48,735 nt of DNA, taken from contig JAQTUD010000002.1 in the NCBI GenBank assembly GCA_028710405.1, positions 1-48,735 on the forward strand, in the 5' to 3' direction. Positions 5,601 through 44,404 of this stretch are shown here, piece by piece. The position numbers and the translations under genes were made by a program. The notes below the pieces were generated by a model. It worked only from the letters and a program-made list of their open reading frames with translations. It was not told the origin of the DNA and did not search any database. Origin of the DNA: Candidatus Omnitrophota bacterium (lineage in GTDB: Bacteria; Omnitrophota; Gorgyraeia; Gygaellales; Profunditerraquicolaceae). Numbering within the stretch: the first letter of the stretch is position 1; every line of letters begins with the position of its first letter.

Positions 5601-5780
5601 GTAATAAGTTCTTTAAAATATCCCTGCGGTGCACGTTGGAAAGAGGAAAATTGTTGAACCAACACCAATTTTAAGGGGGCCGACCTTCCTTGGCGCTTAG
5701 GCGCTTTAGGAGAGGCACCCACCTGAAGCCAAAACGGTTCAGACTATCCCTTCCAACGGCACAATGCGGGGATTTTTTTT
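5601..5780 (+). ncRNA. ssrS: 6S RNA
   Basis: About 165-180 nt RNA that mimics an open promoter and sequesters sigma70-RNA polymerase. The closing stem pairs TCCCTGC (5621-5627) with GCGGGGA (5766-5772), and the next helix pairs CGTTGGAA (5634-5641) with TTCCAACG (5751-5758). The 3' half has the family's typical segment CACCCACCTGAAGCC followed by GGTTCAG, and the end GCGGGGAT runs into eight T residues that serve as terminator. A strong promoter precedes it. I recognise the family from the 3' half and the closing stem; the exact mature 5' end (5601 to about 5617) is uncertain. Confidence 0.85.
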
Positions 5781-28480: not shown

Positions 28481-29386
28481 ATGAAACTGCGGCTTAGTTT
28501 AGTCATTGCGGCGGCATTTTTGGTATCTTTGGCGACGGGTTGCGACCTGCTCAAGATTAAAAAAGAAACAAAACCTGTTGCGCCTGCTTATAATACCGTC
28601 CCTGTCACCGGAACGGTGATCGCCACGGTAAACAATATGCCTATTACCTTAGAAGATTTGAATGCTGATGTCGAGGCTTATAATTCCGTAGTCCCCGAGG
28701 ACAAGCCGGAGAATAAGATTACCACCGCAGAACAGAAAGTCAATTATTTAAAGAATGAGATGGTCCGTAGGACGTTGCTTTATCAGGAAGGCCTGGCCAG
28801 GGGTTTAGACAGGGCGGACCTGGTACGCCAGGATTTAGAAAAAGCAAAGCAGCAACTGGTGCTCATGGAATTAGGAAAGACGCTCACCGAGAATACCGAT
28901 GTCAGCTCTAAAGAAATAGAAGATTATTATAATTCCTATAAGGACCAGTTAAAGGAACCGGAGCAGAGGCAGATACGCGAAATAGTGCTTTCTACAGAGC
29001 AAGAGGCAAAGGACATAATGATCCAGCTTTTACAGGGCGCGGATTTTGCCACATTGGCCAAGGATCGCTCCAAGGCAGCCAGCGCCAAAAACGCGGGGGA
29101 CTTGGGTTTCATCCAGAGAGGGACAAAGTCTGCCGAATTTGATGAGGCGGCATTCTCTAACACCCTGGAAGCAGGGAAGACGAGTTCTATCTTTAAAGGC
29201 CCCGACGGATACTATATTATAAAATTGGAAGCCAAGCGCGGAGGCGGACAGAAGTCGCTATCCGAACTCTGGGATAATATCAAGCGGATGCTTGTTTTCT
29301 TAAAACAACAACAGAAAATAGAGGATCTGGTAGGTAAGCTTTCTAGCGAGGCCAAAATAGTAATTGACGAGGGGAAGGTGCAATAA
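28481..29386 (+). CDS. PpiC/SurA-type peptidyl-prolyl isomerase lipoprotein
   Basis: 301 aa periplasmic folding factor anchored by lipid: lipobox LATGC at ~18-22. The SurA-like N-terminal helical part (NNMPITLEDLNADVEAY; RRTLLYQEGLARGLDR) is followed by a parvulin domain (~165-260: REIVLSTEQEAKDIM, FATLAKDRS, GDLGFIQRG, KGPDGYYIIKLEAKR). The C-terminal helix closes the SurA core. It ends one base before cpaB, so it belongs to the pilus operon and may help fold the secretin or pilins. Preceded by AAAGGAG. Confidence 0.88.
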   Translation: MKLRLSLVIAAAFLVSLATGCDLLKIKKETKPVAPAYNTVPVTGTVIATVNNMPITLEDLNADVEAYNSVVPEDKPENKITTAEQKVNYLKNEMVRRTLLYQEGLARGLDRADLVRQDLEKAKQQLVLMELGKTLTENTDVSSKEIEDYYNSYKDQLKEPEQRQIREIVLSTEQEAKDIMIQLLQGADFATLAKDRSKAASAKNAGDLGFIQRGTKSAEFDEAAFSNTLEAGKTSSIFKGPDGYYIIKLEAKRGGGQKSLSELWDNIKRMLVFLKQQQKIEDLVGKLSSEAKIVIDEGKVQ

Positions 29387-29387
29387 C

Positions 29388-30302
29388 ATGACGAATTTTC
29401 CGCAGATGCCACAGATGAAGAAGCAGCGCATCATCCTTATAAGCGGGATAGCCCTGATCGTGGTCGCCCTATTCGCGCTAAAAATATATGTTGACCAGAT
29501 CCGCACAGAGGCTGATATAGAGGCAAAAGCAAAATCGCAGAAATATCAGGCTAGCCAGGTTATGGTGTTAATAGCCAAGAGAGATATAGATAAGGGTGTG
29601 GCTATTGACATTGAAGATCTGCAAACAGAGAATATGCCCAGCCAATTTGTTCAGCCGCAGGCGGTTACTTCTTTTGACAGGATCTCCGGAATGATTACGC
29701 TGGCCCCTATTTCCAAAGGAGAACAAATTACCTTAAGTAAACTGGCATATCAGCGTGCCGGCAACCTTGCATCCATTACTCCCGTCGGGAAAAGGGCAGT
29801 CAGTATTGCCGTAGATAATATTTCTTCTCTGAGCGGGATGATCAAAGGCGGAGATTACGTGGATGTCATCGGGATGATACCCGTTTCTATGCAGACCCCG
29901 GATGGCAAGACGGTAACTCAGATTAAAGTAGCGCCTTTATTCCAAAATATCCTGGTTTTGGCAGTAGGCCAGGACATGGGGATGCCCGTTAAGGAAGAGT
30001 CACGGTATAAGAAACAGGAGAGCACAAAAGAAGCCTCCCCTCTTATCACCTTGGCGCTATCCCCGCAGGAAGCCAGCCTTATTACTTTTGTTCAAGAGCA
30101 GAGCAAGATCAGGCTGGTATTGCGTTCTCCGACCGATGCCAAGATAGAGTCGGTCCAGCCGGCCAGCTGGGATACATTATCCCAATATATTATGCCTGGG
30201 CCGCCGGCGGCGGGAGAAGCAGGGGTCAAGCCGCAGGAGGAAGAAGGGGAATACGTAGAGATATACAGGGGTCTAAATAAAGAGAAAGTCCCTCTGCGCT
30301 AA
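29388..30302 (+). CDS. cpaB: Flp pilus assembly protein CpaB/RcpC
   Basis: 304 aa from ATG 29388; an in-frame earlier start at 29364 lies inside the upstream gene. N-terminal membrane helix (IILISGIALIVVALFALKIYV), a SAF-type domain (VLIAKRDIDKGVAIDIEDL, ISGMITLAPISKGEQITLSKL), then the RcpC region (VGKRAVSIAVDNISSLSGMIKGGDYVDVIGMI; LALSPQEASLITFVQEQSKIRLVLRSP as hallmarks, quoted in parts). In Tad systems it sits in the periplasm and links pilus assembly to the secretin, whose gene follows. Confidence 0.92.
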   Translation: MTNFPQMPQMKKQRIILISGIALIVVALFALKIYVDQIRTEADIEAKAKSQKYQASQVMVLIAKRDIDKGVAIDIEDLQTENMPSQFVQPQAVTSFDRISGMITLAPISKGEQITLSKLAYQRAGNLASITPVGKRAVSIAVDNISSLSGMIKGGDYVDVIGMIPVSMQTPDGKTVTQIKVAPLFQNILVLAVGQDMGMPVKEESRYKKQESTKEASPLITLALSPQEASLITFVQEQSKIRLVLRSPTDAKIESVQPASWDTLSQYIMPGPPAAGEAGVKPQEEEGEYVEIYRGLNKEKVPLR

Positions 30303-30335
30303 ATACGAAATAAACAACTAAAATAAAGGGGCAAG

Positions 30336-32003
30336 ATGAAAAGATCTATTCTTTTGACGGCATTATTTTTGGCGGCGTTAAACTTGGCGACGGTCTCCGG
30401 AGATAGTATCTACGACACGGTCACAGAGGATGCGGAAGAGATAAAATTATACCTAGGGGGGCCAAAGGTCATCCCTGTGAGCAATCCGACCCGTATCGCG
30501 GTAAGCAATCCTAATATAATGGATGTGACTAATGTGACAAGAAGCGAAGTAACTCTTAGCCCCAAAGCCGTCGGGAACACTACCCTGTTATTTTGGGATA
30601 GTTATGGTGAGCAAACCTTTAGGATTAAAGTCCTCACCGAGAATATGCTGGAGATAAAAGCCCGCATAGATAAGTTATTGGCCAGCCTGGATTTTCCGGA
30701 AGTTTACACCCGCGCTCAGGAAGACGAAGGTAAAGTTATGCTTCTGGGTAGGGTTAAGACCCCGCAGGATAGAGAGCGCATTACCCTGGCCTTGGGAGCG
30801 TTGAAAGAAAAGGCCGTTGATCTCATTGAAGTCAAAGAAGAAGAGACATTGATTGAAATAGATGCCAATGTCATGGAGATAAGCAAGGATTCCACCACCC
30901 GCCTGGGATTTGGCTTACCGGAAAAAGTTAATATACTTGAAGTCGGTTCTCCGGGTATACCTGCTTCCGGTTCGGTCTCCGTTACGACCGGGACTACCCC
31001 CAGCACTTCTTTTGCTACTACAAATACGGGTTCACGTTGGGATGATCTCTTCAGGATATTCCGTGTCAGCCGCGATGCCTTTACGGCTTCCATAGACGCT
31101 TTGGTGGTAGACGGGAAAGCAAAAATTCTCTCCCGTCCGCGCCTGGCCTGTCAGAGTGGCAAAGAAGCACAATTAATGGTGGGAGGGGAGAAACCCACTT
31201 TTTCTACTTTTACCGGGGAGACGAGTTCGGCTGTAGAAATAGAATATAAAGAATATGGCATAAAGGTAAAGGTGCGTCCTACCGTGATGAAAGATGATCG
31301 GATAAAATTGGGGTTGAATATAGAAGTAAGCGAGGTAGGTGAGGCCGAGACCATCGGTACGACTACTTCAGTAACTGCCAAGGCCTACCCGGTGACAAAA
31401 CGTAATATTTCCACAGAACTCTTTATTAATAATGAAGAAACCGTAGCCATAGGCGGCCTGATTAAACAAAGCTCTTCGGAAGAGATCCGCAAGGTTCCTT
31501 TCTTAGGAGATATTCCGGTAGTCGGCCTACTATTTAGGAATAAAACGGCCACTAAGGGTGGCGGGAGCGGTAACAGGGGCGATACGGAATTATTTATTAC
31601 CCTTACCCCCAGCATCATCGCCCGCGATAACCCTCGTCTTCCTGTGGCAGAGCAGGTCATAACGCAACCGCAGGCCAGGCCGGCAGCAATAGCGGTGCCC
31701 GAGATAGGCGTAAACCCTATAAAAGATTATGCTTCCATAATCCAGCAACGTATTATGAATAACCTGGAGTATCCATCCCTTGCCAAAAAAGCGGGTTTTC
31801 AGGGAATAGTAAAATTGAGCCTTCAGTTTTCTCACGTAGGCGCACTTCTAGGGTCCGCAATCGGAGAATCATCCGGGTATAAAATACTTGATGATAACGC
31901 CCTAAACGCGGCCAGAAGTATCGCCTCTTATCCGCCTTTCCCCGTCTCCATAGAGCAGAATGAAATATGGATAGAAGTGCCCATAGCTTATCGCCTGGAT
32001 TAA
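30336..32003 (+). CDS. cpaC: Tad secretin CpaC/RcpA fused to a TonB-like C-terminal domain
   Basis: 555 aa outer-membrane pore for the pilus. Signal peptide 1-22; pilus-secretin N-domain (KLYLGGPKVIPVSNPTRIA, SEVTLSPKAVGNTTLLFWD); BON domain ~125-165; secretin core ~170-430 with VPFLGDIPVVGLLFRN and ELFITLTPSII. After a Pro/Ala linker, residues ~463-555 read as a TonB_C/energy-transducer domain: EYPSLAKKAGFQGIVKLSLQF, ESSGYKILDDNALNAAR, YPPFP and IEVPIAYRLD. Secretins normally end shortly after the core. The extra domain could bind peptidoglycan, another pilus protein or itself. The next gene starts 3 bases on. Confidence 0.9.
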   Translation: MKRSILLTALFLAALNLATVSGDSIYDTVTEDAEEIKLYLGGPKVIPVSNPTRIAVSNPNIMDVTNVTRSEVTLSPKAVGNTTLLFWDSYGEQTFRIKVLTENMLEIKARIDKLLASLDFPEVYTRAQEDEGKVMLLGRVKTPQDRERITLALGALKEKAVDLIEVKEEETLIEIDANVMEISKDSTTRLGFGLPEKVNILEVGSPGIPASGSVSVTTGTTPSTSFATTNTGSRWDDLFRIFRVSRDAFTASIDALVVDGKAKILSRPRLACQSGKEAQLMVGGEKPTFSTFTGETSSAVEIEYKEYGIKVKVRPTVMKDDRIKLGLNIEVSEVGEAETIGTTTSVTAKAYPVTKRNISTELFINNEETVAIGGLIKQSSSEEIRKVPFLGDIPVVGLLFRNKTATKGGGSGNRGDTELFITLTPSIIARDNPRLPVAEQVITQPQARPAAIAVPEIGVNPIKDYASIIQQRIMNNLEYPSLAKKAGFQGIVKLSLQFSHVGALLGSAIGESSGYKILDDNALNAARSIASYPPFPVSIEQNEIWIEVPIAYRLD

Positions 32004-32006
32004 AAT

Positions 32007-34166
32007 ATGTCTAAGAGGATAGTATTTTTTAGCACAAAAGGCGGAGTAGGTAAAACTCTGATTGCCGCCAATCTGGCTGTTGATTTGGCCAAGAAAGAAG
32101 AGAAGCGCGTTTGTCTGGTTGATCTGGATACGCAGGCTGTGGGCGATATGGCGCGCTTGCTTAATCTAAAGCCAAAAAAATCAATGGCGGATTTGATTTA
32201 TCTGCTGAAGAAATATCCGCAACAACTCGACAAGAACGACTTTTTAGTAAACAACCCATCTTTAGGCGCTGATTTCCTGGAAGGAATCAATAAACCCCAA
32301 CAGTCTCCTCATCTTGACCCGGAAAAAATAAAAGATGTCTTCGCCTTGCTAGATAAGTCTTATGACTATCTTGTTATTGATGCCGGCAAGAGTTTTAGCG
32401 ATATCCTGATAAAGGTCATAAATGAGGCCAACCTTATACTTTTAGTGGTAACGCCGGATATATTGTCTATATACCAAACGGAATGGATCTTGGACGTATT
32501 ACAGAATTTACATATCCCATTGAGCATGATCAGGGTGGTGCTTAACAGGGCTGAATCTGTCTCAGGTATCAGCTGGCAGGAGGTCAGGGTAAGCCTTCCG
32601 GTCGATATTATAGCCAGGATCCCATCCGAAGGCAAAACCGTGGGTGACGCCCTTAATCGCAACGTACCCTTTGTATTAGAAAACCCCAGGGCAAGGATTT
32701 CTATAGCCCTGAATAATTTTGCTCATGAACTAGCCACCAACGACCAGTTATTCCTTGGCCAGGTCAGTGCTATAGAAGATCTCAAGTTAAAGGAAATACC
32801 GGTAGAAAAAACAGGCCAGACCTGGAAGAAGGAAGGCCTGGATGAAGAATTGGCTGAGCCGGAGCCGGCGGAGAAAACAGACGAGATCATCCTGCTTAAA
32901 AGCAGGATCCATAATCGTCTTATTGATGAATTAAACCTCAAGCGACTGGATTTAAAGGCATTCACAGACTCAAAAAAGACTAAGGATTTAAGGGATAAAG
33001 CGGAAAGAATGGTCACTAATTTCCTGGCCGAGGAAGCAGGGAGTTTTATCTCTGCTTCCGGGATCCGTAATAAATTGGTAAAAGAAATCCTGGATGAGGC
33101 GCTTGGTTTAGGCCCCTTAGAAGATCTCCTGGCCGACCCCGAAATTACCGATATTATGGTAAATAATAAAGACGAGGTCTTTGTAGAGAAACGCGGTAAG
33201 ATAGAATTAACCAGCAAGAAATTCATCTCTAATTCCCAGGTCAAGACGATCATTGAACGTATCATCGCCCCTATCGGCAGGAGGATAGATGAGTCTGTGC
33301 CGATGGTAGACGCGCGCTTAGCCGATGGTTCGCGCGTCAATGCCATTATCCCGCCTCTGGCCCTGACCGGACCGACGCTGACCATTAGAAAATTCCGTAA
33401 AGAGAGGTTCAAGACGGAAGAGTTGATCAGCATGGGGACTACCAATCAGGCGGTAGTTGATTTTATAAAGGCATGCGTATTATGCAGAAAGAATATAATC
33501 GTCTCCGGAGGCACCGGCAGCGGTAAGACGACAATTTTGAATATCCTTTCCGCATTCATCCCGGATAATGAACGTATTATTACCCTTGAAGATGCCGCGG
33601 AGTTAAAGTTAAGCCAAAGCCACTGGTTGAGATTGGAATCTCGGCCTCCTAATATTGAAGGCAGAGGCGCGGTCACTATCAGGGATCTCTTTAGAAATAC
33701 TTTGCGTATGCGGCCGGATAGAATTATTATCGGAGAGTGCCGTGGCGCTGAAACCCTGGATATGCTTCAGGCGATGAATACAGGCCACGATGGCTCTATG
33801 ACCACTATTCACGCCAACTCTACTCACGATGTCCTCTCCAGGCTTGATTCCATGATCCTTATGTCAGGGGTAGAATTGCCTGTAAGGGCCATACGTGAGA
33901 TGGTCGCCTCTGCCCTTGATATCATCGTCCATACCGCCAGATTGTCCGACGGCACCCGTAAGATAATCCAGGTGAGCGAATTAACAGGGATGAAAGACGA
34001 GACCCATATCGGGCTGGAAGATATCTTTGTCTTCAATCAAACAGGCATGGGCCCGGACCATAAGGTATTGGGGGACTTTCGGGCTACCGGCTATGTGCCT
34101 TCATTTGTTAATGAAATAAAGATAAAGGGCATAGCGCTTCCTGAAAACGTCTTTAAGTCTGCTTAA
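32007..34166 (+). CDS. cpaF: CpaE-CpaF fusion: ParA/MinD-like localiser joined to the Tad secretion ATPase
   Basis: 719 aa. Residues 1-~250: a MinD/ParA-type P-loop protein with deviant Walker A KGGVGKT (11-17), VCLVDLDTQ (36-44) and YLVIDAG (121-127), the TadZ/CpaE role (polar placement of the pilus); no receiver-like domain. Linker ~255-295. Residues ~296-719: full CpaF/TadA motor ATPase with Walker A GGTGSGKTT (501-509), RIITLEDAAELKL, Walker B DRIIIGECRG (571-580), and the His box GHDGSMTTIHA (593-603). In known tad loci these are two genes. No in-frame stop, and the joint is clean, so one polypeptide is expected. Downstream lies a REP-like palindrome. Confidence 0.93.
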   Translation: MSKRIVFFSTKGGVGKTLIAANLAVDLAKKEEKRVCLVDLDTQAVGDMARLLNLKPKKSMADLIYLLKKYPQQLDKNDFLVNNPSLGADFLEGINKPQQSPHLDPEKIKDVFALLDKSYDYLVIDAGKSFSDILIKVINEANLILLVVTPDILSIYQTEWILDVLQNLHIPLSMIRVVLNRAESVSGISWQEVRVSLPVDIIARIPSEGKTVGDALNRNVPFVLENPRARISIALNNFAHELATNDQLFLGQVSAIEDLKLKEIPVEKTGQTWKKEGLDEELAEPEPAEKTDEIILLKSRIHNRLIDELNLKRLDLKAFTDSKKTKDLRDKAERMVTNFLAEEAGSFISASGIRNKLVKEILDEALGLGPLEDLLADPEITDIMVNNKDEVFVEKRGKIELTSKKFISNSQVKTIIERIIAPIGRRIDESVPMVDARLADGSRVNAIIPPLALTGPTLTIRKFRKERFKTEELISMGTTNQAVVDFIKACVLCRKNIIVSGGTGSGKTTILNILSAFIPDNERIITLEDAAELKLSQSHWLRLESRPPNIEGRGAVTIRDLFRNTLRMRPDRIIIGECRGAETLDMLQAMNTGHDGSMTTIHANSTHDVLSRLDSMILMSGVELPVRAIREMVASALDIIVHTARLSDGTRKIIQVSELTGMKDETHIGLEDIFVFNQTGMGPDHKVLGDFRATGYVPSFVNEIKIKGIALPENVFKSA

Positions 34167-34708: not shown

Positions 34709-36241
34709 ATGGGTATTATCCATAAATTAAAGCCAGAAATCAAAGATTTTATATTAGAGCAGAAAAAGACTAATTCCAGGATTAGTTGCCGCAAGCTTTC
34801 CGGTTTACTTCAGAAAAAATATCAGATTAAACTCTCCAAATCCAGCATTAATGCCATATTTAAAAACACAGGCCTGAGTATGCCTGTAGGCAGGAGAAAG
34901 AGGCTTAGCAGTAGCAAGCCGGTCAAAGAAACGCTATTACAGAGCCCTTTGCCAGCAACTCCGGAAGCGCCAAGCCAAGAGAGATCCTCTGGTATTATAA
35001 TCCTGAAAGCAGTGGATTATTTATTAGGAGGTAGCCAGAGATTCAGCGAAATAATCCAGAGAAAAATAGGCACTGACCAGAAAGATATTCTATCCCAGAT
35101 AGAGCGGATTATTTACGGGGCGTTATATATGTCCAAAGAGGAAGAAACAAAGAGCAGTTTATCTTATCTTAATGAATTTCAATATGTTACAGAAATAAAA
35201 TCTGATATGGCTTTACAATTCTCCAACGTGTTCCGTGAGACACGTAACATAAAAGTGGATTTATCAGAGAATGAGGTTTTATATTTAGATGCCCGATTAC
35301 ATACTATTTGGTCTACGCCATATACCCCATATGATTTTGATGTAACTACTTCTAATATAAGTAGTTATATACATAAGCATCTCCAGGAGAATGTTTTTTT
35401 ATTGGGTATGGCGCCGGTTAATGATATTCCGGGAAAGGATTTTTTTGATTTTATTAATGGCCTTTATGGCCAGGAGAAGAGTATATTAAAATTTACCCTT
35501 TGTGGTAATAATTTTGAGGAACTGGAGGTTATTACTCCACCCGTAGATCAAAGATGCTATTGTGTATTTGGGGCCTGGCCCTGGCAGTTTAGGGAATACC
35601 GTAAAGTAAATAAAATCGGAGAATTTAATCCTTTTTATTTTTCCGGCCTGAAGAAGTATTATTATATTGCGCAGGTAGAGATTGAGTTATTGCAACCGAT
35701 TGAACAACAAAGAGTTACATTAATAGGTGTAGCCTTGAAGACAGCCCTGGCGGAGAAGGCGCGCCTGCTTATCCTGACCAATCTTCCTGCCGAATCAGTT
35801 TCTTATGAGAAACTAGCGGATGATTATCTTAACCGTTGGCCTAACCTTGAAGAGGGGTTTGAAGATTTTAACCGTAAAATCGAACTTTTTACCTACACTG
35901 CCGGTCTCAAAAGCTCTTTTTTACCGCCCAAAATTAATCTTAATAAAGCCGTCTCCTGCGATGTCAAAGATCTCCTTGCTGTCTACTCCCATGCCCTGGA
36001 TCTATACCTAAAGTGTTATTTTGCCCCGACACAACTCCAGAAAGATGATTCTCCGTCGATGAAAGAGTGTTTTTACGGCTTAGAAGCCATCCCGAAGAAG
36101 GAGAAAAATAATACTTTTATTACCTTTTCCCCTCCTGCCGGATATCCTTTCCCGCAGGAACTGGCTTATCTGTGCCGTAGGCTCAATGAAAGAGAGCTCT
36201 TCCTACCGGATAAGACCCGCCTGCGCTTCTGTGTTATTTAG
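34709..36241 (+). CDS. HTH protein with a transposase-like body, inside the tad locus
   Basis: 510 aa. N-terminal ~70 residues look like a homeodomain-type HTH used by transposases (SRISCRKLSGLLQKKYQIKLSKSSINAIFKNTGL), then a basic/Pro linker. The body has blocks reminiscent of IS4-like DDE transposases: YLDARLHTIWSTPY (~190-203), KARLLILTNLPAESVSYEKL (~347) and YLNRWPNLEEGFEDFNRKI (~371), comparable to the Y..RW.IE..F.DLK element. No terminal inverted repeats frame it. It has its own strong promoter with paired operator-like repeats, and the pilin riboswitch follows. A domesticated transposase acting as regulator is possible; family not certain. Confidence 0.6.
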   Translation: MGIIHKLKPEIKDFILEQKKTNSRISCRKLSGLLQKKYQIKLSKSSINAIFKNTGLSMPVGRRKRLSSSKPVKETLLQSPLPATPEAPSQERSSGIIILKAVDYLLGGSQRFSEIIQRKIGTDQKDILSQIERIIYGALYMSKEEETKSSLSYLNEFQYVTEIKSDMALQFSNVFRETRNIKVDLSENEVLYLDARLHTIWSTPYTPYDFDVTTSNISSYIHKHLQENVFLLGMAPVNDIPGKDFFDFINGLYGQEKSILKFTLCGNNFEELEVITPPVDQRCYCVFGAWPWQFREYRKVNKIGEFNPFYFSGLKKYYYIAQVEIELLQPIEQQRVTLIGVALKTALAEKARLLILTNLPAESVSYEKLADDYLNRWPNLEEGFEDFNRKIELFTYTAGLKSSFLPPKINLNKAVSCDVKDLLAVYSHALDLYLKCYFAPTQLQKDDSPSMKECFYGLEAIPKKEKNNTFITFSPPAGYPFPQELAYLCRRLNERELFLPDKTRLRFCVI

Positions 36242-36271
36242 AAAACGCTTTCCTATTAGGTAGAGATTTCC

Positions 36272-36300
36272 TTGACGCCACTATATATAAATGTTATATT
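36272..36300 (+). promoter_or_regulatory. Promoter of the pilin/riboswitch transcript
   Basis: TTGACG (36272-36277), 17 bp, TATATT (36295-36300); predicted start near 36307. The -10 region ATGTTATATTTTAA (36291-36304) is identical to that of the HTH gene promoter (34673-34686). Confidence 0.85.
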
Positions 36301-36329
36301 TTAATTGCGATTAGAAGGCGGCATCGAAA

Positions 36330-36450
36330 GAGCAAGGCGGGGATGGAGGTCTCTGCTGCGCAAAGCCACGGGATGCGCTCGCCAGAACATTTTAGGTTTT
36401 TTAATTTTTGCTTCCATGGGTCTGGAGCGAGGACATTAGCCGGGTTACCG
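36330..36450 (+). promoter_or_regulatory. c-di-GMP-I / GEMM-I class riboswitch, A20 variant (candidate cyclic AMP-GMP specificity)
   Basis: Leader of the pilin operon. Conserved pieces occur in the family's order: AGCAA (36331-36335), P2 hairpin GGCGGGGA/TCTCTGCT (36336-36343 with 36350-36357), the junction GCGCAAAGCCACGGG (36358-36372), a long P3 (CTCGCCAGA, 36378-36386, against TCTGGAGCGAG, 36421-36431), then TAGCCGGGTTACCG (36437-36450). The base aligned with G20 of the Vibrio Vc2 aptamer is A (36331), the change linked in Geobacter-type GEMM-Ib to 3',3'-cGAMP recognition. The P2 loop is not a GNRA tetraloop. Its 3' side is also the first arm of a terminator, so ligand binding should switch expression on. 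Ligand identity is inferred. Confidence 0.85.
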
Positions 36451-36485
36451 AAAGCCGACAGGATTTTTGGTAATCCGGCTTTTTG
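36439..36485 (+). terminator. Riboswitch-controlled intrinsic terminator
   Basis: GCCGGGTTACC (36439-36449) pairs with GGTAATCCGGC (36469-36479), followed by TTTTT. The 5' arm is part of the aptamer core, making aptamer and terminator mutually exclusive. Confidence 0.88.
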
Positions 36486-36537
36486 TTAAAAAAATTTTTA
36501 ATGACTTTAATAAAGTGCTTAAGAGGAGGTGAAAAAA

Positions 36538-36711
36538 ATGTTACGCAAAAAGGGCCAGTCAACACTGGAATACGTGTTAGTTCTAACCGCGATCATCGCG
36601 GCAGTAATTGTGGCGGCAACTAAGTTTGTCAAACCTAGGGTGGAAGGTTCGTTGGACCATGTTTCCCAGGAGATGGAGGACCAGGTAGGGAGAATTCAAT
36701 TTGGAAAGTAA
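36538..36711 (+). CDS. Class III signal-peptide pilin 1 (first gene under the riboswitch)
   Basis: 57 aa from ATG 36538, placed 7 bases after AGGAGGT; an in-frame GTG at 36529 would overlap that site. Leader MLRKKG, processing motif KKGQSTLEY, then a hydrophobic helix (VLVLTAIIAAVIVAATKF) and a short amphipathic tail. The Q-S-x-x-E pattern is the class III (archaellin-like) or Flp prepilin type, cleaved before or after the Gln by a dedicated peptidase not present in this window. Shortest of the riboswitch-proximal pilins, and so a good candidate for the major subunit. Confidence 0.9.
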   Translation: MLRKKGQSTLEYVLVLTAIIAAVIVAATKFVKPRVEGSLDHVSQEMEDQVGRIQFGK

Positions 36712-36724: not shown

Positions 36725-37066
36725 ATGTTAGGCAGATTAGGCAAAAAGGCGCAGAGTACTGCTGAATACGCAATCATTATCGCTTTGGTTATAGCCGCGG
36801 TAGTGGCGATGCAGGTTTATGTGAGAAGGGGCATACAGGGTAGAGTCAGAGATGTGGTTGATCATACCGGTGCCGGTGGCGATGTTGGCGGAGAGAATCT
36901 TTCTTTTAGCAGCGGCCAATATGAGCCTTATTATAATCAAACAACGGGTTCAACCTCCCAGAAATCACAGAATACGGAGAGCGTAGACGGCACATCCAGG
37001 AGTTCTACTACTTCTGTTGATGCTACCAGGGAACAGACAACGGGTTGGTTTGGTTCTGAAGAATAA
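36725..37066 (+). CDS. Class III signal-peptide pilin 2
   Basis: 113 aa from ATG 36725, preceded by AAGGAGGTG. Leader and motif GKKAQSTAEYAIIIAL, helix ending MQVYVRRGIQGRVRDVV, a block shared with pilins 3, 6 and 7. The tail (~60 residues) is rich in Ser, Thr, Gln and Gly (SSGQYEPYYNQTTGSTSQKS), probably extended and surface-exposed. It follows pilin 1 by 13 bases. Confidence 0.88.
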   Translation: MLGRLGKKAQSTAEYAIIIALVIAAVVAMQVYVRRGIQGRVRDVVDHTGAGGDVGGENLSFSSGQYEPYYNQTTGSTSQKSQNTESVDGTSRSSTTSVDATREQTTGWFGSEE

Positions 37067-37091
37067 GTTTTTTAAAAGGAGGTGAAAAAGA

Positions 37092-37403
37092 ATGTTTATA
37101 CGTCTGAACAAAAAGGGGCAAGGCACGCTTGAATACGGAGTAATTATTGCCGTAGTAGTCGCGGGGTTAATTTTTATGCAGACCTATGTAAAGCAGGGAG
37201 TACAGGGGAAACTAAAGCAATCCGCAGATGAAATAGGAGAGCAGTATTCGGAGCATTCGACGGGAACAATAACCACGATCAGCAACGTAAATACCGAAGA
37301 GAATACGACCGGCGGGGATAGGCCTGTTACTACTAGTTCCAGCACTCAACATCAGACCCGCAGCTCTACCGAGAATATAACCGTCTCTGATCAGGAGGAG
37401 TAA
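37092..37403 (+). CDS. Class III signal-peptide pilin 3
   Basis: 103 aa. Preceded by AAAAGGAGGTG. Motif NKKGQGTLEYGVIIAVV, helix ending MQTYVKQGVQGKLKQSAD, then a Thr/Ser-rich tail (TGTITTISNVNTEEN, TTSSSTQHQTRSST) that resembles pilin 2's in composition but not in sequence. Confidence 0.88.
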   Translation: MFIRLNKKGQGTLEYGVIIAVVVAGLIFMQTYVKQGVQGKLKQSADEIGEQYSEHSTGTITTISNVNTEENTTGGDRPVTTSSSTQHQTRSSTENITVSDQEE

Positions 37404-37437
37404 GCCAGGTAAGTATGCATCGACAGGAGGATAAAAA

Positions 37438-38283
37438 ATGATTTTGATTATTGCTCTTTTGTTTTCAGCCTCTTTGCTGCTTTTGGGGATGGCCCTGGCA
37501 CCTTCTTTAGTCGATAAAGCAAGGCAGTGGCAGAAGAAGAAAGAGGTGTTCTTGGAGAAGGAGCTCGACAAGACTTTTTACAGCAAGAGCCCGAAAGAGC
37601 TCTTAAGGCTTTACTTCATTCTGCCTCCTGTCTTCGGCGTCGTTGTTTTCCTTCTCCTGAATTCCGCGATTTTAGCGGCGGCAGGGGCAGTCTTGGGGTT
37701 ATTTGTCCCTACCATAATCCTGCGGATAAGGGACAGCCGGCACAAGCAGAAATTTAATACCCAGCTTTTAGACGCTATCATGATCTTGGCCAGTTGCCTT
37801 AAGGGAGGGCTCTCTTTATTGCAGGCCCTGGAAATATTAATAGAAGAGATCCCCGCACCGATGAGCCAGGAGATGGGCCTGGTAGTCAGGGAGAACAAGA
37901 TGGGGGTGCCTTTAGAGGAGAGCCTGGTGCATTTAAATGAAAGGATAGGATCTGAAGAGCTGGGGTTAGTAATAAACTCTATACTGGTTGCGCGCGAGAC
38001 CGGGGGCGACCTGACCAAGGTATTAAGCCGGCTTACCACAACTATCCGCGATAACCGTAAATTAACGGATAGCATTAAGACGCTGACTATGCAGGGAAAG
38101 ATGCAGGGCATTATCATGTCTTTCCTGCCTTTTGGTTTTATCTGGTGGGTGGTGACATTCAACCGCGAGCATTTTGATATCATGCTTAATACCGAAAAAG
38201 GGAGGATGCTCCTTTTCGTGGCGGTGGTCTTGCAGATTATAGGTATGTTTTTGATTAAAAAATTTAGTACCATAAAATTGTAA
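37438..38283 (+). CDS. tadB: Tad inner-membrane platform protein TadB
   Basis: 281 aa type II secretion F-domain protein. N-terminal helix, a pair of helices (RLYFILPPVFGVVVFLLLNS, AGAVLGLFVPTIILRI), cytoplasmic F domain (LLDAIMILASCLKGGLSLLQALEIL, RENKMGVPLEESLVHLNERIG region, ILVARETGGDLTKVL) and C-terminal helices. Forms the platform with TadC on which the CpaF motor acts. Good ribosome-binding site GACAGGAGG. It is separated from the motor gene by the HTH gene and pilins. Confidence 0.93.
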   Translation: MILIIALLFSASLLLLGMALAPSLVDKARQWQKKKEVFLEKELDKTFYSKSPKELLRLYFILPPVFGVVVFLLLNSAILAAAGAVLGLFVPTIILRIRDSRHKQKFNTQLLDAIMILASCLKGGLSLLQALEILIEEIPAPMSQEMGLVVRENKMGVPLEESLVHLNERIGSEELGLVINSILVARETGGDLTKVLSRLTTTIRDNRKLTDSIKTLTMQGKMQGIIMSFLPFGFIWWVVTFNREHFDIMLNTEKGRMLLFVAVVLQIIGMFLIKKFSTIKL

Positions 38284-38293
38284 GGAGAAGATA

Positions 38294-39154
38294 ATGGTCC
38301 TTATTTATCTGCTTATAATAATAGGAATAATGGCTGTCCTGGCGGGGCTTTTGGGTATGCCTTCATTCTCGAGCCCGAGAATGAATTTTACTCCGAAACA
38401 GAATCAAAGCCGCGCGCCCAAAGCACTCTTGAGCCAGGCGCTTGGCCTAAGTTTTCCTTTCAGCAAACTTTTCCTGGAGAACACAAAATTATCCGCGAAA
38501 ATGAAAAATCGGCTTGATTCCGCGCATGTCGGGCTCACCCCCGCGGCATTTTTTAACCTGAAGTTGATACTGGCGGTAGTGTTAAACATCGCGGCTTTTT
38601 TTACCCTGCAGAAGATAGATCCCGTCGTTATTATCTTCTGCCTTTTCTTTGGGTATATGGTTCCGGATATCTGGCTGAACAGGAAGGTCCAGGAACGCAA
38701 GGAAAAAATCGTAAAAACAATGCCTGAAACAGTAGACCTTTTGGGCCTCTGCGTAGAGGCGGGACTGGATTTTGCTTCGGCAGTGAAGTGGGTCATAGAA
38801 AAAACTCCGCACAACCCTATGGTGGAAGAGCTGGCTTTTGTCCTGGAAGAGATCCGCTGGGGAAAACCTCGTACCCAGGCATTAAAAGATATGTCCACAA
38901 GGTTACAGGTTTCGGAGATAACTTCTTTTGTGCAGACTTTGGTGTTGGCAGAGCGCATGGGGACCCCGGTTTCTGAGGCATTCGCCATACTTTCTGAAGA
39001 TACGCGCCTGCAGCGTTACCACCGTGGAGAGAGGATCGCGATGAAGGCGCCCTTAAAAATCCTCATTCCCCTGATATTCTTTATCCTGCCGGTGATCGCT
39101 ATTGTTATCGGCGGGCCGATATTCTTGCAGTTTATGGATAAGAAGATGTTTTAA
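38294..39154 (+). CDS. tadC: Tad inner-membrane platform protein TadC
   Basis: 286 aa, second F-domain protein. Helices at the N-terminus (LLIIIGIMAVLAGLLGM) and around 90-135, F domain with MPETVDLLGLCVEAGLDFASAVKWV and VLAERMGTPVSEAFAILSED, and C-terminal helix LIPLIFFILPVIAIVIGG. It pairs with TadB. Preceded by TAAGGAGAAG; the next pilin ATG follows 2 bases after the stop. Confidence 0.93.
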   Translation: MVLIYLLIIIGIMAVLAGLLGMPSFSSPRMNFTPKQNQSRAPKALLSQALGLSFPFSKLFLENTKLSAKMKNRLDSAHVGLTPAAFFNLKLILAVVLNIAAFFTLQKIDPVVIIFCLFFGYMVPDIWLNRKVQERKEKIVKTMPETVDLLGLCVEAGLDFASAVKWVIEKTPHNPMVEELAFVLEEIRWGKPRTQALKDMSTRLQVSEITSFVQTLVLAERMGTPVSEAFAILSEDTRLQRYHRGERIAMKAPLKILIPLIFFILPVIAIVIGGPIFLQFMDKKMF

Positions 39155-39156
39155 AT

Positions 39157-39339
39157 ATGGCGGGCGATAACATGAAAAAAACATTTATGAGAGGACAGTC
39201 CATTGCGGAATATTTCATCGTTATGAGCGTGGTCCTGGCGGCAATACTGGCCCTGGGTTTTGTCGGCCGCATGCGCAATACTTTTGGTGAATATTTTACG
39301 GATGCCGCCAGCGTAATGACCAAAGAGACAGAGCCTTAA
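39157..39339 (+). CDS. Class III signal-peptide pilin 4
   Basis: 60 aa from ATG 39157, or 55 aa from ATG 39172 (MKKTFMRGQ); neither has a clear ribosome-binding site, and the first is closer to the tadC stop. Motif MRGQSIAEYFIVMSVVLAA, a helix and a short tail. It lacks the MQxYVKRG block. Likely a minor pilin. Confidence 0.85.
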   Translation: MAGDNMKKTFMRGQSIAEYFIVMSVVLAAILALGFVGRMRNTFGEYFTDAASVMTKETEP

Positions 39340-39348
39340 GAGGGACAT

Positions 39349-39513
39349 ATGTTAAAATTCTTTTATAGCAAACGGGCGCAGAATTTCTTAGAGTATACGG
39401 TATTAATCGCCGTAGTCTCGGCGGCGTTATTGGCGATGAGCCAATATATCCAGCGGGCAGTAAACGCGCGCTTCAGACAAGTGCAGGTAGAATTGGATGA
39501 GTCCAAAAGGTAA
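39349..39513 (+). CDS. Class III signal-peptide pilin 5, 54 aa
   Basis: Short ORF starting ATGTTAAAATTC after AAGAGGG. Leader MLKFFYSKRAQ, motif KRAQNFLEYTVLIAVVSAA, helix ending MSQYIQRAVNARFRQVQ, then a brief charged tail (VELDESKR). Its helix end aligns with the MQxYVKRGxQGKIR block of the other pilins (Y, R and spacing kept), so it is a real member of the set despite its size. Confidence 0.85.
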   Translation: MLKFFYSKRAQNFLEYTVLIAVVSAALLAMSQYIQRAVNARFRQVQVELDESKR

Positions 39514-39530
39514 CTAAAGGAGCCCTCAAG

Positions 39531-39866
39531 ATGAGGCGTAGTAAAGCGCAGAATACTCTGGAATATTGTATGCTTATAGGTGTAATCGCCTTGGCCTTGC
39601 TTGCGATGCAGGTTTATCTCAAGAGAGGAGCGCAGGGCCGGATAAGGGGCTATGCCGATGAATTAAGCGAAGGGTTCGGTTATTCTCCGGGCGCTTCATC
39701 CGCGGATAACGTAATTACCCGTAACATAACAGAAAACTCAAAGTCTTATTCAGAGGGGAAGGTTGGGGAGATAAAAAAGAGCGTTACTGATTCCAGCACT
39801 ACGATCCATCAGAATATCCAGCGTCGGGAAAATACGCTTCCTTTCGGCGCCGAACCGAAAAGGTGA
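39531..39866 (+). CDS. Class III signal-peptide pilin 6
   Basis: 111 aa. Preceded by TAAAGGAG. Motif SKAQNTLEYCMLIGVIALA, helix ending MQVYLKRGAQGRIRGYADE, then a polar tail with Ser/Thr/Asn (DNVITRNITENSKSYSEG). Very close to pilins 2, 3 and 7 in the block after the helix. The next gene's GTG/ATG start region overlaps its stop. Confidence 0.88.
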   Translation: MRRSKAQNTLEYCMLIGVIALALLAMQVYLKRGAQGRIRGYADELSEGFGYSPGASSADNVITRNITENSKSYSEGKVGEIKKSVTDSSTTIHQNIQRRENTLPFGAEPKR

Positions 39867-39871
39867 GAGAT

Positions 39872-40585
39872 ATGAATAAGCGTGCAAACACAATAATGGA
39901 GTGGGTTATCCTTATCGGATTAGTCTCGTTAGGATTTATCACGATGAATATCTATGTCAAGCGCGGCCTGCAGGGAAAGATCGCCGATATGAGCGATTAC
40001 TTTATCGGCGAAGAGCACGCCGCGGATGCCAATCCTACGGCTATTGTTACCAGCAAAACCGTAAGCAGCTCCAGCGGTACCACTACATCCGATATGTCAT
40101 TTGGGGGAGGGATGCAATTGGCGCTTTTAGAAGACAGGGATATAACCGCAACCAGCAGGGTGGTGGATGAATCAAAGGAGCAAAAACCAGGAAAATTTGT
40201 TCCGCAGGAATCAGGTAATATTGATGTGCCTGTGCCGCCGGATCCCCAGCAGATAGCCGCAGAAGCGGACCAGACTGAAGAGGTCGTTGATTTTAAGACA
40301 CAGAGCAAGGAAAACCAAGTAAAGATCAGGCTTAAGGAAGCCGCTCAGTTAGAAAAGAAAGCTGATGAGTTAGATGCGAATGCTGCGAAATTAAGACAAC
40401 AGGCAGATGATATAGATTGTCCACGTTACCGTAGTGGATCATGTAAAAGCGGGAAAAAGAAAATGCGGCTGGAGGCAAATGAGATGGTCGCTGAAGCCAA
40501 GGAGATGAGAAAAGAAGCCGAAGCCAAAAGAACGGAAGCCGCACAGATCCAGGCCGAGATCGACCAGTTAAAGGGTGACCAATGA
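39872..40585 (+). CDS. Class III-type pilin 7 with a long coiled-coil tail
   Basis: 237 aa from ATG 39872 (AAGGTGAGAG upstream); an in-frame GTG at 39863 is possible. Motif KRANTIMEWVILIGLVS: Asn replaces the usual Gln and Trp the Tyr. Helix ends MNIYVKRGLQGKIADMSD. Then a Ser/Thr-rich part, a Pro-rich part (VPVPPDPQQ), and a charged Ala-rich coiled coil (~135-235) interrupted by a Cys pair (CPRYRSGSC). Pilins do not normally carry such a tail; it may be a minor pilin linking other parts. It overlaps the next gene by 4 bases. Confidence 0.83.
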   Translation: MNKRANTIMEWVILIGLVSLGFITMNIYVKRGLQGKIADMSDYFIGEEHAADANPTAIVTSKTVSSSSGTTTSDMSFGGGMQLALLEDRDITATSRVVDESKEQKPGKFVPQESGNIDVPVPPDPQQIAAEADQTEEVVDFKTQSKENQVKIRLKEAAQLEKKADELDANAAKLRQQADDIDCPRYRSGSCKSGKKKMRLEANEMVAEAKEMRKEAEAKRTEAAQIQAEIDQLKGDQ

Positions 40586-41364
40586 AATATTCCCATAATA
40601 AAAAAGCCCAAGCAGTGGTGGAGTTAGCAATATTCGGCAGCATTATCTTAGTTGTCTTCGGCATCCTGCTTTCTTATGTGCAAAGGCTTAATGACCAGCA
40701 ATATGTGCAGATGGAGGCTTTCCGCCGCGCTTTAGAAAAGGCTTGCAATACCACAGCCGGCGCTTCAGTGCAATATACGTTGATTACCGACAGGCACCAT
40801 GCTGATCTAAACGGCGGCTTGGGAAAGGGAAGCCCTACTACGGTCAGTGCATCTACCAATGTCTTCTGGGCAGTCCCCAAAGCCGCAGAGGATGCCAAGG
40901 CGAACAGCTTAATAATCTTTAGAATTAACGAAGACGAGAAGTCGCGTTCTTACGATGAATTTGTGCCCGTCGAACATGACGGTAATGTAAAAGAAGGCGA
41001 TCCTGCAGAAATAGAGTGGTCATTTAGGACCGAAGAGATGATTTCCAGCTCGGATGCCAAATTTGACGAAACAGTGCGTAAGCAGGAATCACCTTCAGGT
41101 ATAACCAATACAAGGGTCTCTAAATTATCCGAAAGCAAAAAATATAAGATCCCCTATACTGTGCGGGTAGAAGATGACGACGATGATGACGAAAATGATG
41201 TGGAAGCCAAGCCGGGCGGCACTTTTTGGGAAGGGCCGGATTCTCCTGGCGGAGAATTAGTGCAGCGTCTTTACCGCGATACAGACGGCCAGTATAAATA
41301 TAGCAGCAAAGTGCCGGAAGGCACGGTAGTTGAGAGGACAAGGCAATGGCAAACCGGATTTTAA
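40582..41364 (+). CDS. TadE/TadF-like minor pseudopilin, 260 aa
   Basis: Class III-like leader KKAQAVVELAIFGSIILVVFGILLSYV; the Glu after the processing motif is kept. After the helix lies a typical TadE-style stretch (RLNDQQYVQMEAFRRALEKA) followed by a ~180-residue extracytoplasmic part with an acidic run (VEDDDDDDENDVE, residues ~195-207). It overlaps both neighbours (4 bases upstream, 19 bases downstream). It probably sits at the pilus base or tip; precise family not certain. Confidence 0.78.
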   Translation: MKYSHNKKAQAVVELAIFGSIILVVFGILLSYVQRLNDQQYVQMEAFRRALEKACNTTAGASVQYTLITDRHHADLNGGLGKGSPTTVSASTNVFWAVPKAAEDAKANSLIIFRINEDEKSRSYDEFVPVEHDGNVKEGDPAEIEWSFRTEEMISSSDAKFDETVRKQESPSGITNTRVSKLSESKKYKIPYTVRVEDDDDDDENDVEAKPGGTFWEGPDSPGGELVQRLYRDTDGQYKYSSKVPEGTVVERTRQWQTGF

Positions 41365-41612
41365 ATTTAAAAGGGCAGGCAACGCTGGAAACGGCGATCG
41401 TTTTTTTCCTGGTCGTGGCATTATTCGGCGGGATAATCAAGATCTGGCTCTGGGAGAACCGCCAGATAGTGGAACGCCAGCTTCGTTATAATGCCACAAG
41501 GGTGAGTGCCGGCACAGGAAGCGATACCTATAAATTGCAGTGGCCGATTTATACGCCTCCGGACCTTAAGGAAGAAGATGTTATCATAAATAATTCATCT
41601 TTTAGGAGATAA
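41346..41612 (+). CDS. TadE-like minor pseudopilin, 88 aa
   Basis: Leader and helix NLKGQATLETAIVFFLVVALFGGIIKIW; Glu in the +5-like position as in TadE proteins. A short extracytoplasmic part (ENRQIVERQLRYNATRVSAG) follows. It begins inside the previous gene (19-base overlap) and ends 3 bases before the TadG-like gene. Confidence 0.8.
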   Translation: MANRILNLKGQATLETAIVFFLVVALFGGIIKIWLWENRQIVERQLRYNATRVSAGTGSDTYKLQWPIYTPPDLKEEDVIINNSSFRR

Positions 41613-41615
41613 AGG

Positions 41616-43292
41616 ATGTTTACCTATTTCCATGAGAATAAATTTTTCGGTAACCAGAAAGGGCAACTGACTGCTTTATTTATAGTAATAATTGTGGTCC
41701 TGGTAATAATGGCGATGGTCACGGTAAGCCTGACCAAAGTTTCTTTCATGAAGACCGAATCCAGTAATGCCACTGATTCTGCTGCCCTGGCGACCGGAGC
41801 AGTCATGGCGAATATTTTTAATTCCATAGTCCAGGCAAATGACGATATGGAAGCGAAATACCAGCAGTTCTTGATCACTGTTTCGGCGGAGTTCGCCGCG
41901 GCGCAATTAGCATTGTTGTTGGGCGAAACCCAGGTAGAGGCCAGCTTAAATACTTCTCAGCAGACCAAGAAGAGTTGCAGCGACCAAAACTGTCCAGATA
42001 CCGTTGAATCAATGGTCGCCGCCGGCCAAGAATCATTAGCCAAAAACTATATAATGGAGACCTTTTTATCATTGGTAGAGTCAATAATTGTTACTATTAC
42101 AGCCTACTCCATCGGCACTTTTTACTATTATAAATCCATCAGAAAAATGGCCGAGGAAGGGCGCAATAGCGCCATAAAAATGGGGCATCAATTCGCGTTT
42201 ATGAATAGCGGCATAGGCGGAAAATTAAAGGAGGGCAAGCCGCCGGCTGAGGTAACCGATCCGGATGCCAGGCGTAATTACCGCGATGAATTTAGTAAAT
42301 TTATGGATATTTTTAGCAATGAAGATCTCGTGCCGGCAAATGAATATACATATTCGTGGATAGACGGTTCTGGCGGGAAACATTATATAAAATCAAAGGT
42401 GGAAACAGAGAAGCTGGATACTTTTAAATTAAAGATTACTGCTATGCCCTGGGAGGCGGAAATCGCATTATTGATGCTGGGGACAGGAGTCGGCATTCTA
42501 TTTTTATACAGTTTAGGCGGCGTCTTTTACGGTGTTGGTTGTATCTGTTATGCCTTGAGCAGCGCATTTAGCTGGTTTCCGCCATTAAAGGCGGCTTTTG
42601 AGGTTTGTCAATATGTCGCCTGCCTGGCAGGAAATCTGTCAATAATATCAGGAAATTTCGTGAACAAGTATGTTGAATATCAATTAAACGGAGTAAGAGC
42701 CGCTTTATTGATCGCGTCACTGGGGGTATTCCCCGGTTTTACGATCAGGGATGATTCAGGGGATGTTATGTGGGCAACGATCTGTTGGCTGGAAGATATC
42801 GTCCACGACCGTAAAGTCAGGGTGGATACCTGGGCATATCACGAGGGGACAGATATGGGATTATGGCAGGCAAAATATCCCCAGACGCATAGTTACAGTA
42901 TTATAGATTTCACAAATAACTGCAAGATCTATCCCCCGGATGATGAGAACAAAAAACATGACCCATCTATTGTGGCGACTGATGTCATTGGCATACCGCA
43001 AACCGACCCCGATCCGCATAAGGATTGTCCTTATGCCACCGAGGAATGCGCGAATATTGAGAAAGAGATCAGCGATTCGCTGGCGGCTGCTGATGAATAT
43101 GATGCGCAGGCAAAGGAATTGGAGAAGACAATTACGCTTTATCAAGAGCAGGGTATGAGCCAGGAGCACATAGCCGAAATGTCTAAGCTGGCCCAGGATG
43201 CCCGCGGCCGCGCCGAAGAAGCTCGTAAGCAGGTTGGCGATCTTGAAACCAAGAAAGAAGATCTAAAGGAAGAATATGCGCAGTGTTTTTAA
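41616..43292 (+). CDS. TadG-like protein
   Basis: 558 aa. N-terminal class III-like leader NQKGQLTALFIVIIVVLVIMAMVTVSL; the conserved Glu is missing as in TadG. Then the TadG-type block (KTESSNATDSAALATGAVMAN), an additional hydrophobic pair near 135-165 and a central hydrophobic region near 285-350 (EIALLMLGTGVGILFLYSLGG), and a C-terminal charged coiled coil (~470-556). Several Cys are present (CSDQNC; CPYATEEC). It lacks an obvious von Willebrand-type domain. Role: outer part of the Tad assembly, inferred. Its end overlaps the upstream in-frame extension of the next gene only. Confidence 0.78.
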   Translation: MFTYFHENKFFGNQKGQLTALFIVIIVVLVIMAMVTVSLTKVSFMKTESSNATDSAALATGAVMANIFNSIVQANDDMEAKYQQFLITVSAEFAAAQLALLLGETQVEASLNTSQQTKKSCSDQNCPDTVESMVAAGQESLAKNYIMETFLSLVESIIVTITAYSIGTFYYYKSIRKMAEEGRNSAIKMGHQFAFMNSGIGGKLKEGKPPAEVTDPDARRNYRDEFSKFMDIFSNEDLVPANEYTYSWIDGSGGKHYIKSKVETEKLDTFKLKITAMPWEAEIALLMLGTGVGILFLYSLGGVFYGVGCICYALSSAFSWFPPLKAAFEVCQYVACLAGNLSIISGNFVNKYVEYQLNGVRAALLIASLGVFPGFTIRDDSGDVMWATICWLEDIVHDRKVRVDTWAYHEGTDMGLWQAKYPQTHSYSIIDFTNNCKIYPPDDENKKHDPSIVATDVIGIPQTDPDPHKDCPYATEECANIEKEISDSLAAADEYDAQAKELEKTITLYQEQGMSQEHIAEMSKLAQDARGRAEEARKQVGDLETKKEDLKEEYAQCF

Positions 43293-43305
43293 CTTGGAGG
43301 TAAAT

Positions 43306-44217
43306 ATGTCTCTAAAAAATAATATTTTATTATTGATTTTTACAGGTGTCTTTCTATTGAGTACGGCAAATTTATCTGCTGCTTGGTGGGAGCAACAGGG
43401 TATTCCTGTCCCTTCGGGAACGACCAAGGTAAAAGAAGAAACCCGCAAAGTAGTCGGTATAGATTACGAAATGATCCACTATGAATCAGATCAGTCAGCA
43501 GAACGAATCAAAGATTTCTATCGCAAGGAGCTGGCCGGGTCAGGTTGGACATTATTGGACCCGTATGCCAACCTGGCGGCGAATTCTGGCGAAGGAATGC
43601 CTAAAATGGAGAGCGGTTATCTGGATAAAGCAATAGGAAAGAACCTTATGTTTGAAAACGGTGAAGATATACTTTCATTTAGCTTCTTGCCGGAAGGTTT
43701 TGCCCGCGACGAAAAGACCCATTTTACCGTAACAAAAGGGAAAAAGCCTCAAGCAGGCTCCAATATCAGTGGTAATAAAATACAGTTACAGGTCCCCGAA
43801 TTAGTCGCAAAGCCCAAAAAAGATGTTTATCCGGTATATCCGGGGTCATCCCTGGTAAACCTTTCAGAAAATGAGCGTACCTTAAATGCTACTTATTTTA
43901 CGCGCGATGATATTGAAGACGCGGTGATCTTTTTTAAAAAAGAGATGTCCAGATATGGCTGGTATCTTAGCGATGAAAGGCCGGTTTCAAAGGCCAGCAA
44001 GGTGGATTCTGCTCAGGCGAAAGCCAGTTGCCCTTCGTGCGAGCAGCAGTTACCAGGGCTATCTTTAGAGGTATGGTCCGCGGAGTTGATTTTTACCAAT
44101 GACAGGCAGGATACCTGCCGGCTGACTCTGGCCCAGGCCGTACCTCCGGCAGACGAACAATACGCGTCTCTTGGTATGACTACTATAACGGTGGATTATG
44201 CGGAAAAAACCAGGTAA
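43306..44217 (+). CDS. Secreted protein with two copies of a ~55-residue domain
   Basis: 303 aa from ATG 43306, chosen for the ribosome-binding site TTGGAGGT; the frame also opens earlier at 43276. Signal peptide 1-25 (ends LSAAWW). Copy 1 at ~32-84 (IPVPSGTTKV ... IKDFYRKELAGSGWTLLD) and copy 2 at ~173-224 (YPVYPGSSLV ... AVIFFKKEMSRYGWYLSDE) share the layout (Y/I)PVxxGxxxV...x(F/Y)(Y/F)(R/K)KE(L/M)xxxGW. A CPSCEQQ pair follows copy 2. Family not recognised. The domain's form suggests a periplasmic scaffold or pilus accessory. Confidence 0.75.
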   Translation: MSLKNNILLLIFTGVFLLSTANLSAAWWEQQGIPVPSGTTKVKEETRKVVGIDYEMIHYESDQSAERIKDFYRKELAGSGWTLLDPYANLAANSGEGMPKMESGYLDKAIGKNLMFENGEDILSFSFLPEGFARDEKTHFTVTKGKKPQAGSNISGNKIQLQVPELVAKPKKDVYPVYPGSSLVNLSENERTLNATYFTRDDIEDAVIFFKKEMSRYGWYLSDERPVSKASKVDSAQAKASCPSCEQQLPGLSLEVWSAELIFTNDRQDTCRLTLAQAVPPADEQYASLGMTTITVDYAEKTR

Positions 44218-44404
44218 GGCACAGGGTTTTCTGGAATACGCGGTATTCATAATGGTAATAGCCGCGGCGCTTTTTGCGATGCGGATATATTTTGCCCGCG
44301 CGATACAGGAAAAATACCGCCAGGCCGGGGATGTATTCGGCGAAGGAGAGCAGTATCAGCCGGGCGTAACGCAGACGGCAGAAACAAGCAATACGCATCA
44401 ATAG
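44198..44404 (+). CDS. Class III signal-peptide pilin 8
   Basis: 68 aa, starting within the last codons of the previous gene (20-base overlap). Motif GKAQGFLEYAVFIMVIAAA, helix ending MRIYFARAIQEKYRQAGD (aligned with the MQxYVKRGxQGKIR block), then a short polar tail. It lies next to the large secreted protein and so may be its partner in the pilus. Confidence 0.87.
   Translation: MRKKPGKAQGFLEYAVFIMVIAAALFAMRIYFARAIQEKYRQAGDVFGEGEQYQPGVTQTAETSNTHQ

Follow-up and report, generated by a model that had tools for sequence, protein, structure and literature searches.

A putative cyclic-dinucleotide riboswitch of a divergent GEMM-I type precedes a Tad pilin operon in Omnitrophota

The Tad locus and its leader region

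The window analyzed here is a contig of 48,735 nucleotides (JAQTUD010000002.1) from an Omnitrophota genome (GCA_028710405.1) of 1.16 Mb that is 86.7% complete. It carries a Tad (Flp) locus with the components common to the Tad operons of this phylum, namely a secretin, CpaB/RcpC, a TadZ-TadA fusion, TadB, TadC, and many small pilins. The genes for CpaB/RcpC, the secretin and the TadZ-TadA fusion lie upstream of the leader examined below, at 29364–34166. The secretin (30336–32003) is unusual in being fused to a C-terminal TonB_C domain (PF00263, E = 1.2e-39; PF03544, E = 6.5e-14), and the 719-aa protein encoded at 32007–34166 joins MinD/ParA-like (TadZ) and T2SSE (TadA) domains. Elsewhere in the window, a 6S RNA is present at 5618–5776 (59.7 bits).

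Downstream of the leader and on the forward strand, the first gene of the operon (36538–36711) encodes a pilin of 57 aa bearing the sequence KKGQSTLEYV. Its Class_IIIsignal match (E = 4.8e-4) falls below the Pfam cut-off, as do most single pilins of the operon, and an orthologous pilin follows the other leaders too. The remainder of the operon (36725–44404, forward strand) holds ten further genes with pilin-like N termini, bringing the total to eleven, along with TadB (37438–38283) and TadC (38294–39154); among the ten are a TadE-like gene (41346–41612) and a TadG-like gene (41616–43292). A sequence-only reading of the region had placed eight or more pilins plus TadB and TadC under the control of this leader, and at least eight pilin-like genes and two T2SSF (TadB/TadC) genes are indeed found.

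The strong promoter that had been noted for this leader is located at 36272–36300 on the forward strand, where TTGACG and TATATT are separated by 17 nucleotides in a sigma-70-type arrangement with an extended −10 element (TGTTATATT). The TTGAC…TGTTATATT promoter, which reads TGTTATAGT in one copy, is common to 27 of 30 homologous leaders. A palindromic box, GAAAACGCTTTC, to which no strand is assigned, occupies positions 36241–36252, 19 bp upstream of the −35 element. With up to two mismatches, this box is found upstream of 28 of the 30 homologous leaders compared with 4.9% of control stretches, and its distance to the −35 element is 19–20 bp in all 25 leaders that have both the box and a mapped −35 element. 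This sequence is probably the site for a candidate regulator protein, an operator LacI-like in form. Because GAAAACGCTTTC is kept at this spacing in most leaders, a second layer of control over the pilin operon is likely. No Rfam matches were found beside the other genomic copies of the palindrome.

The leader spanning 36319–36457 folds as a GEMM-I three-way junction. The unconstrained minimum free energy (MFE) structure of the transcript to position 36463 corresponds exactly to this junction (−47.4 kcal/mol), wherein P1 (36319–36326/36449–36457), P2 (36336–36357) and P3 (36364–36446) are all intact, and none of 200 shuffled sequences folds as well (z = −4.0). The conserved GEMM-I blocks, which had been listed as AGCAA, P2, GCGCAAAGCCACGGG, P3 and TAGCCGGGTTACCG, occur in that order on the forward strand. 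The 5′ strand of P1 (CGGC-AT-CG) pairs with 36449–36457. Alignment to GEMM-I places A36331 at the position equivalent to G20 of the Vc2 aptamer, as had been stated. The expected GNRA tetraloop is likewise absent from P2, whose covarying stem carries the loop UGGAGG (36344–36349) instead. P2 is followed by the core GCGCAAAGCCACGGG (36358–36372), which includes the A47 equivalent (A36362), and by a P3 extension (36372–36437) made of an outer helix (GATG/CATT), a CUCGC/GCGAG helix, and an apical hairpin (36410–36428) with the loop UGGGUC. The 3′ core AGCCGGGTTACCGAAAGCCG (36438–36457) then supplies the P3 partner strand, the C92 equivalent (C36448), and the 3′ strand of P1. Thus, the MFE structure, the alignment and covariation all point to a junction of P1, P2 and P3 around a GCAAAGCC-ACGG core, with a pocket that reads A20, A47 and C92.

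An intrinsic terminator followed by a U-tract lies at 36438–36485 (forward strand) and shares nucleotides 36438–36457 with the aptamer. As the sequence-only reading had proposed, the 5′ arm of this terminator is part of the aptamer core: GCCGGGTTACC (36439–36449) pairs with GGTAATCCGGC, with a predicted stability of −28.9 kcal/mol for the terminator alone. In the full leader, the terminator fold (−68.9 kcal/mol) is preferred over the aptamer-constrained fold (−53.1 kcal/mol) by about 16 kcal/mol. Strand 36438–36457 participates in both folds, which are mutually exclusive in the manner of a transcriptional ON riboswitch, and among the 30 leaders nearly all have a terminator that takes the 3′ strand of P1, often with C92. 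These predicted structures support a GEMM-I-type transcriptional switch before the Tad pilin operon, with a terminator competing with the aptamer.

A conserved variant of the GEMM-I family

No match above cut-off was obtained when the leader was scanned with Rfam models, only sub-threshold ones. The window copy scores 29.4 bits against c-di-GMP-I (RF01051), where the cut-off is 35 bits (E = 4e-4 in its own genome), and 28.2 bits against c-di-GMP-I-UAU (RF03168), its best match in the clan, where the cut-off is 65.9 bits. A covariance score below threshold had been named in advance as grounds for rejecting the riboswitch assignment, and for the single window sequence that is formally the outcome. 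When 20 orthologous leaders were scanned with RF01051, 13 passed the cut-off with scores of 36.8–51.4 bits. The group therefore belongs to GEMM-I, with the window copy as a divergent member, and we maintain the family assignment on this comparative basis. The two pocket variants of the same clan do not account for the leader: RF03168 calls for U20/A47/U92, and c-di-GMP-I-GGC (RF03167), which calls for G20/G47/C92 and 59 bits, is not the best clan match and yields nothing at its gathering score, whereas the window copy reads A/A/C. Three ordinary c-di-GMP-I aptamers of 69–73 bits, all with G20, are present elsewhere in the same genome, and aptamers above the cut-off occur in 94 of 98 related genomes.

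Searching with a model based on Omnitrophota aptamers (R1) added five long leaders, each located upstream of a TadB orthologue, and these were combined with the window copy to build a second model (R2) from six leaders. A search of 243 Omnitrophota genomes with R2 yielded 30 strong matches of 60–122 bits, mostly one per genome, and in 29 of these a pilin N terminus of the class III/Flp type is encoded by the first downstream gene detected. No strong match to the variant was found outside the class of the window's genome in a phylum-wide sample of 384 genomes. Two loci with closely related TadB proteins (L045 and L046) have an ordinary GEMM-I aptamer far downstream and are without the variant.

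The variant shares with c-di-GMP-I RNAs the three-way junction, the GC-A47-AAGCC-ACGG core, the CCGGGUU partner strand, and C92. It differs in that P2 ends in a UGGAGGU loop rather than a GNRA tetraloop and lacks a recognizable receptor, P3 is long and capped by an AGGGUCA hairpin loop, and J1/2 has one base fewer than its counterpart in ordinary aptamers; the window copy differs further in having A20. The GGAGG of the P2 loop is kept in 27 of the 30 leaders and the GGGUC of the P3 loop in 26. A kissing contact between UGGAGGU and AGGGUCA was considered, but by eye the loops show no consistent complementarity and they are not lost together (L097, L104). A leader peptide starting from a recurrent ATGCTC was set aside as well, since its reading frames, also judged by eye, vary in length between leaders. 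In several lineages of the variant (L078, L083, L092, L098 and L106), J1/2 contains one or two additional hairpins beside the ligand pocket.

Covariation among the leaders suggests that this fold has been maintained through evolution. Changes on both sides of a base pair number 27, compared with 7.8 ± 2.3 in shuffled alignments (none of 500 shuffles had as many), and paired alignment cells amount to 92.9%, compared with at most 53% when the alignment is slid. Both figures lean towards the model, since it was used to fit the alignment. The P2 stems covary on a plain reading as well, and the outer helix of P3 varies between C-G and U-A at one pair and among G-C, A-U and U-A at another. In L093 and L103, P1 changes from CGGC/GCCG to CGGA/UCCG, wherein a C-G pair becomes A-U with the partner changed too. 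These compensatory changes support the GEMM-I fold as a feature of the whole group, which is apparently a conserved and undescribed variant of the c-di-GMP riboswitch family.

Position 20 and the ligand

The sequence-only reading assigned this aptamer to an A20-type subclass that senses 3′,3′-cGAMP. We take A14 of the Geobacter cGAMP riboswitch to correspond to G20 of Vc2. That Geobacter RNA has an A at A14, and a G20A version of Vc2 binds 3′,3′-cGAMP, as seen in crystal structure 4YB1 (PMC6274999). The window copy has the A20/A47/C92 combination of both RNAs, as expected of the cGAMP-sensing (GEMM-Ib) group. Its orthologues do not keep to it: 20 of the 30 variant leaders have G at position 20, 8 have A, and 2 have C. 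On a tree of TadB proteins, which has weak support and a small sample, the A20 leaders are scattered among C20 and G20 leaders such that at least two changes are needed. The A20 leaders do not form a single group and position 20 is unconserved, so placement in the proposed subclass is not supported. The variant also departs from GEMM-Ib in that its J1/2 lacks U19. The majority pocket, G20/A47/C92, is that of c-di-GMP aptamers.

The enzymes of the genome point in the same direction. The specificity residue of each GGDEF domain was located by counting 26 residues from the GGDEF motif, the distance between Ser348 and Asp374 in a Hypr GGDEF protein (PMC6456294). Ser is absent from the Hypr position of all seven GGDEF domains in the genome, where six have Asp and one has Glu. 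Likewise, no SMODS CD-NTase was found in this genome, compared with 6 of 98 relatives that have one, and the placement in a cGAMP subclass finds no counterpart in either type of synthase. The genome is only 86.7% complete, and therefore the absence of a cGAMP synthase is no proof. Among relatives, a DNA pattern for Hypr-like GGDEF domains matched in 1 of 243 genomes, whereas the canonical Asp pattern matched in 96 of 98. The sole Hypr-like domain (GHEKGS…GGDEF) belongs to L108 (G238), whose genome has no A20 aptamer by pattern.

A20 is also present in GEMM-I aptamers of the GNRA type from about twenty Omnitrophota genomes in which no Hypr GGDEF was seen (L026, L029, L037 and L111–L133, of which 15 were read), although G20 forms are far commoner. 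Many of them have a J1/2 of GAYAAUA, resembling the Geobacter cGAMP riboswitch.

Because position 20 varies, Hypr GGDEF proteins are absent or rare, and the genome has no detected CD-NTase, c-di-GMP is better supported than cGAMP and is most likely the ligand. Since the G20A change lets Vc2 bind 3′,3′-cGAMP, the ligand of the window copy may differ from that of its relatives with G20, and cGAMP or dual specificity is possible for this copy. The fullest form of this alternative, in which A20 makes the window copy a true GEMM-Ib-like ON switch fed by an unrecognized cyclase, draws on the pocket identity noted above and on the GNRA-type A20 aptamers with J1/2 GAYAAUA in the phylum. We consider it improbable, though the strongest of the competing explanations, given that neither type of synthase was found in this incomplete genome, that a Hypr GGDEF was found in 1 of 243 relatives, and that orthologous leaders of the same operon have A, G or C at position 20. 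More speculatively, single changes at position 20 could retune one orthologous pilus riboswitch between genera, from c-di-GMP to 3′,3′-cGAMP or another ligand, in which case both the A20 copies and the A20 aptamers of the GNRA type would respond to cGAMP from a cyclase belonging to neither the Hypr GGDEF proteins nor the known CD-NTases.

Variation at position 20 could also mean that ligand control has drifted away, or that the window copy is decaying, leaving a relic aptamer and a terminator with constant partial read-through. In three A20 leaders of one genus (L094, L100 and L107) the C92 position reads G, possibly a further pocket change or decay, and deviations at C92 or in P1 of these leaders are what such a relic might display. 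This explanation is very unlikely, as A47, GCC-ACGG and the CCGGGUU helix are nearly invariant across leaders (A47 in 30 of 30), P2 and P3 pairing is kept by compensatory changes, and every helix of the window copy is intact. Least probable of all is that a different ligand or a protein is sensed through the new loops UGGAGGU and AGGGUCA, which are conserved despite replacing the GNRA-receptor contact while position 20 is free to vary, because nearly all leaders retain A47 and C92 and the loops sit at the distal tips of P2 and P3, where they may simply provide a substitute P2–P3 contact.

A proposed switch for Tad pili

Our preferred explanation, to which we assign a probability of roughly 70%, is that a cis-acting cyclic-dinucleotide riboswitch from a divergent Omnitrophota branch of GEMM-I turns on the Tad pilin operon, most likely in response to c-di-GMP. 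Sequence and comparison show that the leader is homologous to GEMM-I and shares its predicted fold, that its aptamer and terminator overlap, and that its link to pilin genes is conserved. Weighing against this explanation are the score of the window copy under the Rfam gathering threshold, the loss of the GEMM-I tetraloop-receptor contact, and the possibility that A20 gives this copy another ligand than its G20 relatives have.

As RNA polymerase transcribes the 5′ half of the leader, P1, P2 and P3 would join as a three-way junction whose ligand pocket is made of position 20, A47 and C92. Binding of ligand (most likely c-di-GMP, or for this A20 copy 3′,3′-cGAMP or both) before the 3′ arm of the terminator emerges would keep AGCCGGGTTACCGAAAGCCG in the aptamer, and transcription would run into the pilin genes. 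When no ligand is bound, the AGCCGGGTTACCGAAAGCCG strand would pair with GGTAATCCGGC and transcription would be terminated. The layout is that of an anti-termination ON switch, and the direction in vivo is suggested by analogy. The pilM riboswitch of Geobacter metallireducens works through mutually exclusive aptamer and terminator folds, is induced by cGAMP, and shares with this leader a terminator overlapping P1 and the pocket, an ON-switch layout, and downstream pilus genes (PMC9262584). Because the layouts match, ligand should switch the operon on here as well.

Tad genes in Omnitrophota have been tied to a predatory lifestyle in a study that makes no mention of a riboswitch or c-di-GMP (PMC10066038), and the switch may act in attachment to surfaces or prey. 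Our literature search found no paper naming both Omnitrophota and a riboswitch, and riboswitch control of Tad pili in this phylum seems to be undescribed. Position 20 varies freely among relatives, and hence A20 alone is no safe sign of cGAMP sensing, which leaves c-di-GMP as the most likely ligand. Differing at position 20 (G, A or C) and in the extra hairpins of J1/2, and having a new P2 loop, the variant leaders offer a natural series for studying how GEMM-I RNAs that lack the GNRA-receptor contact retain or alter their ligand. The findings suggest that, in an uncultured phylum whose bacteria are very small and in part predatory, Tad pili are coupled to cyclic-dinucleotide signaling at the RNA level, through one conserved switch per genome.
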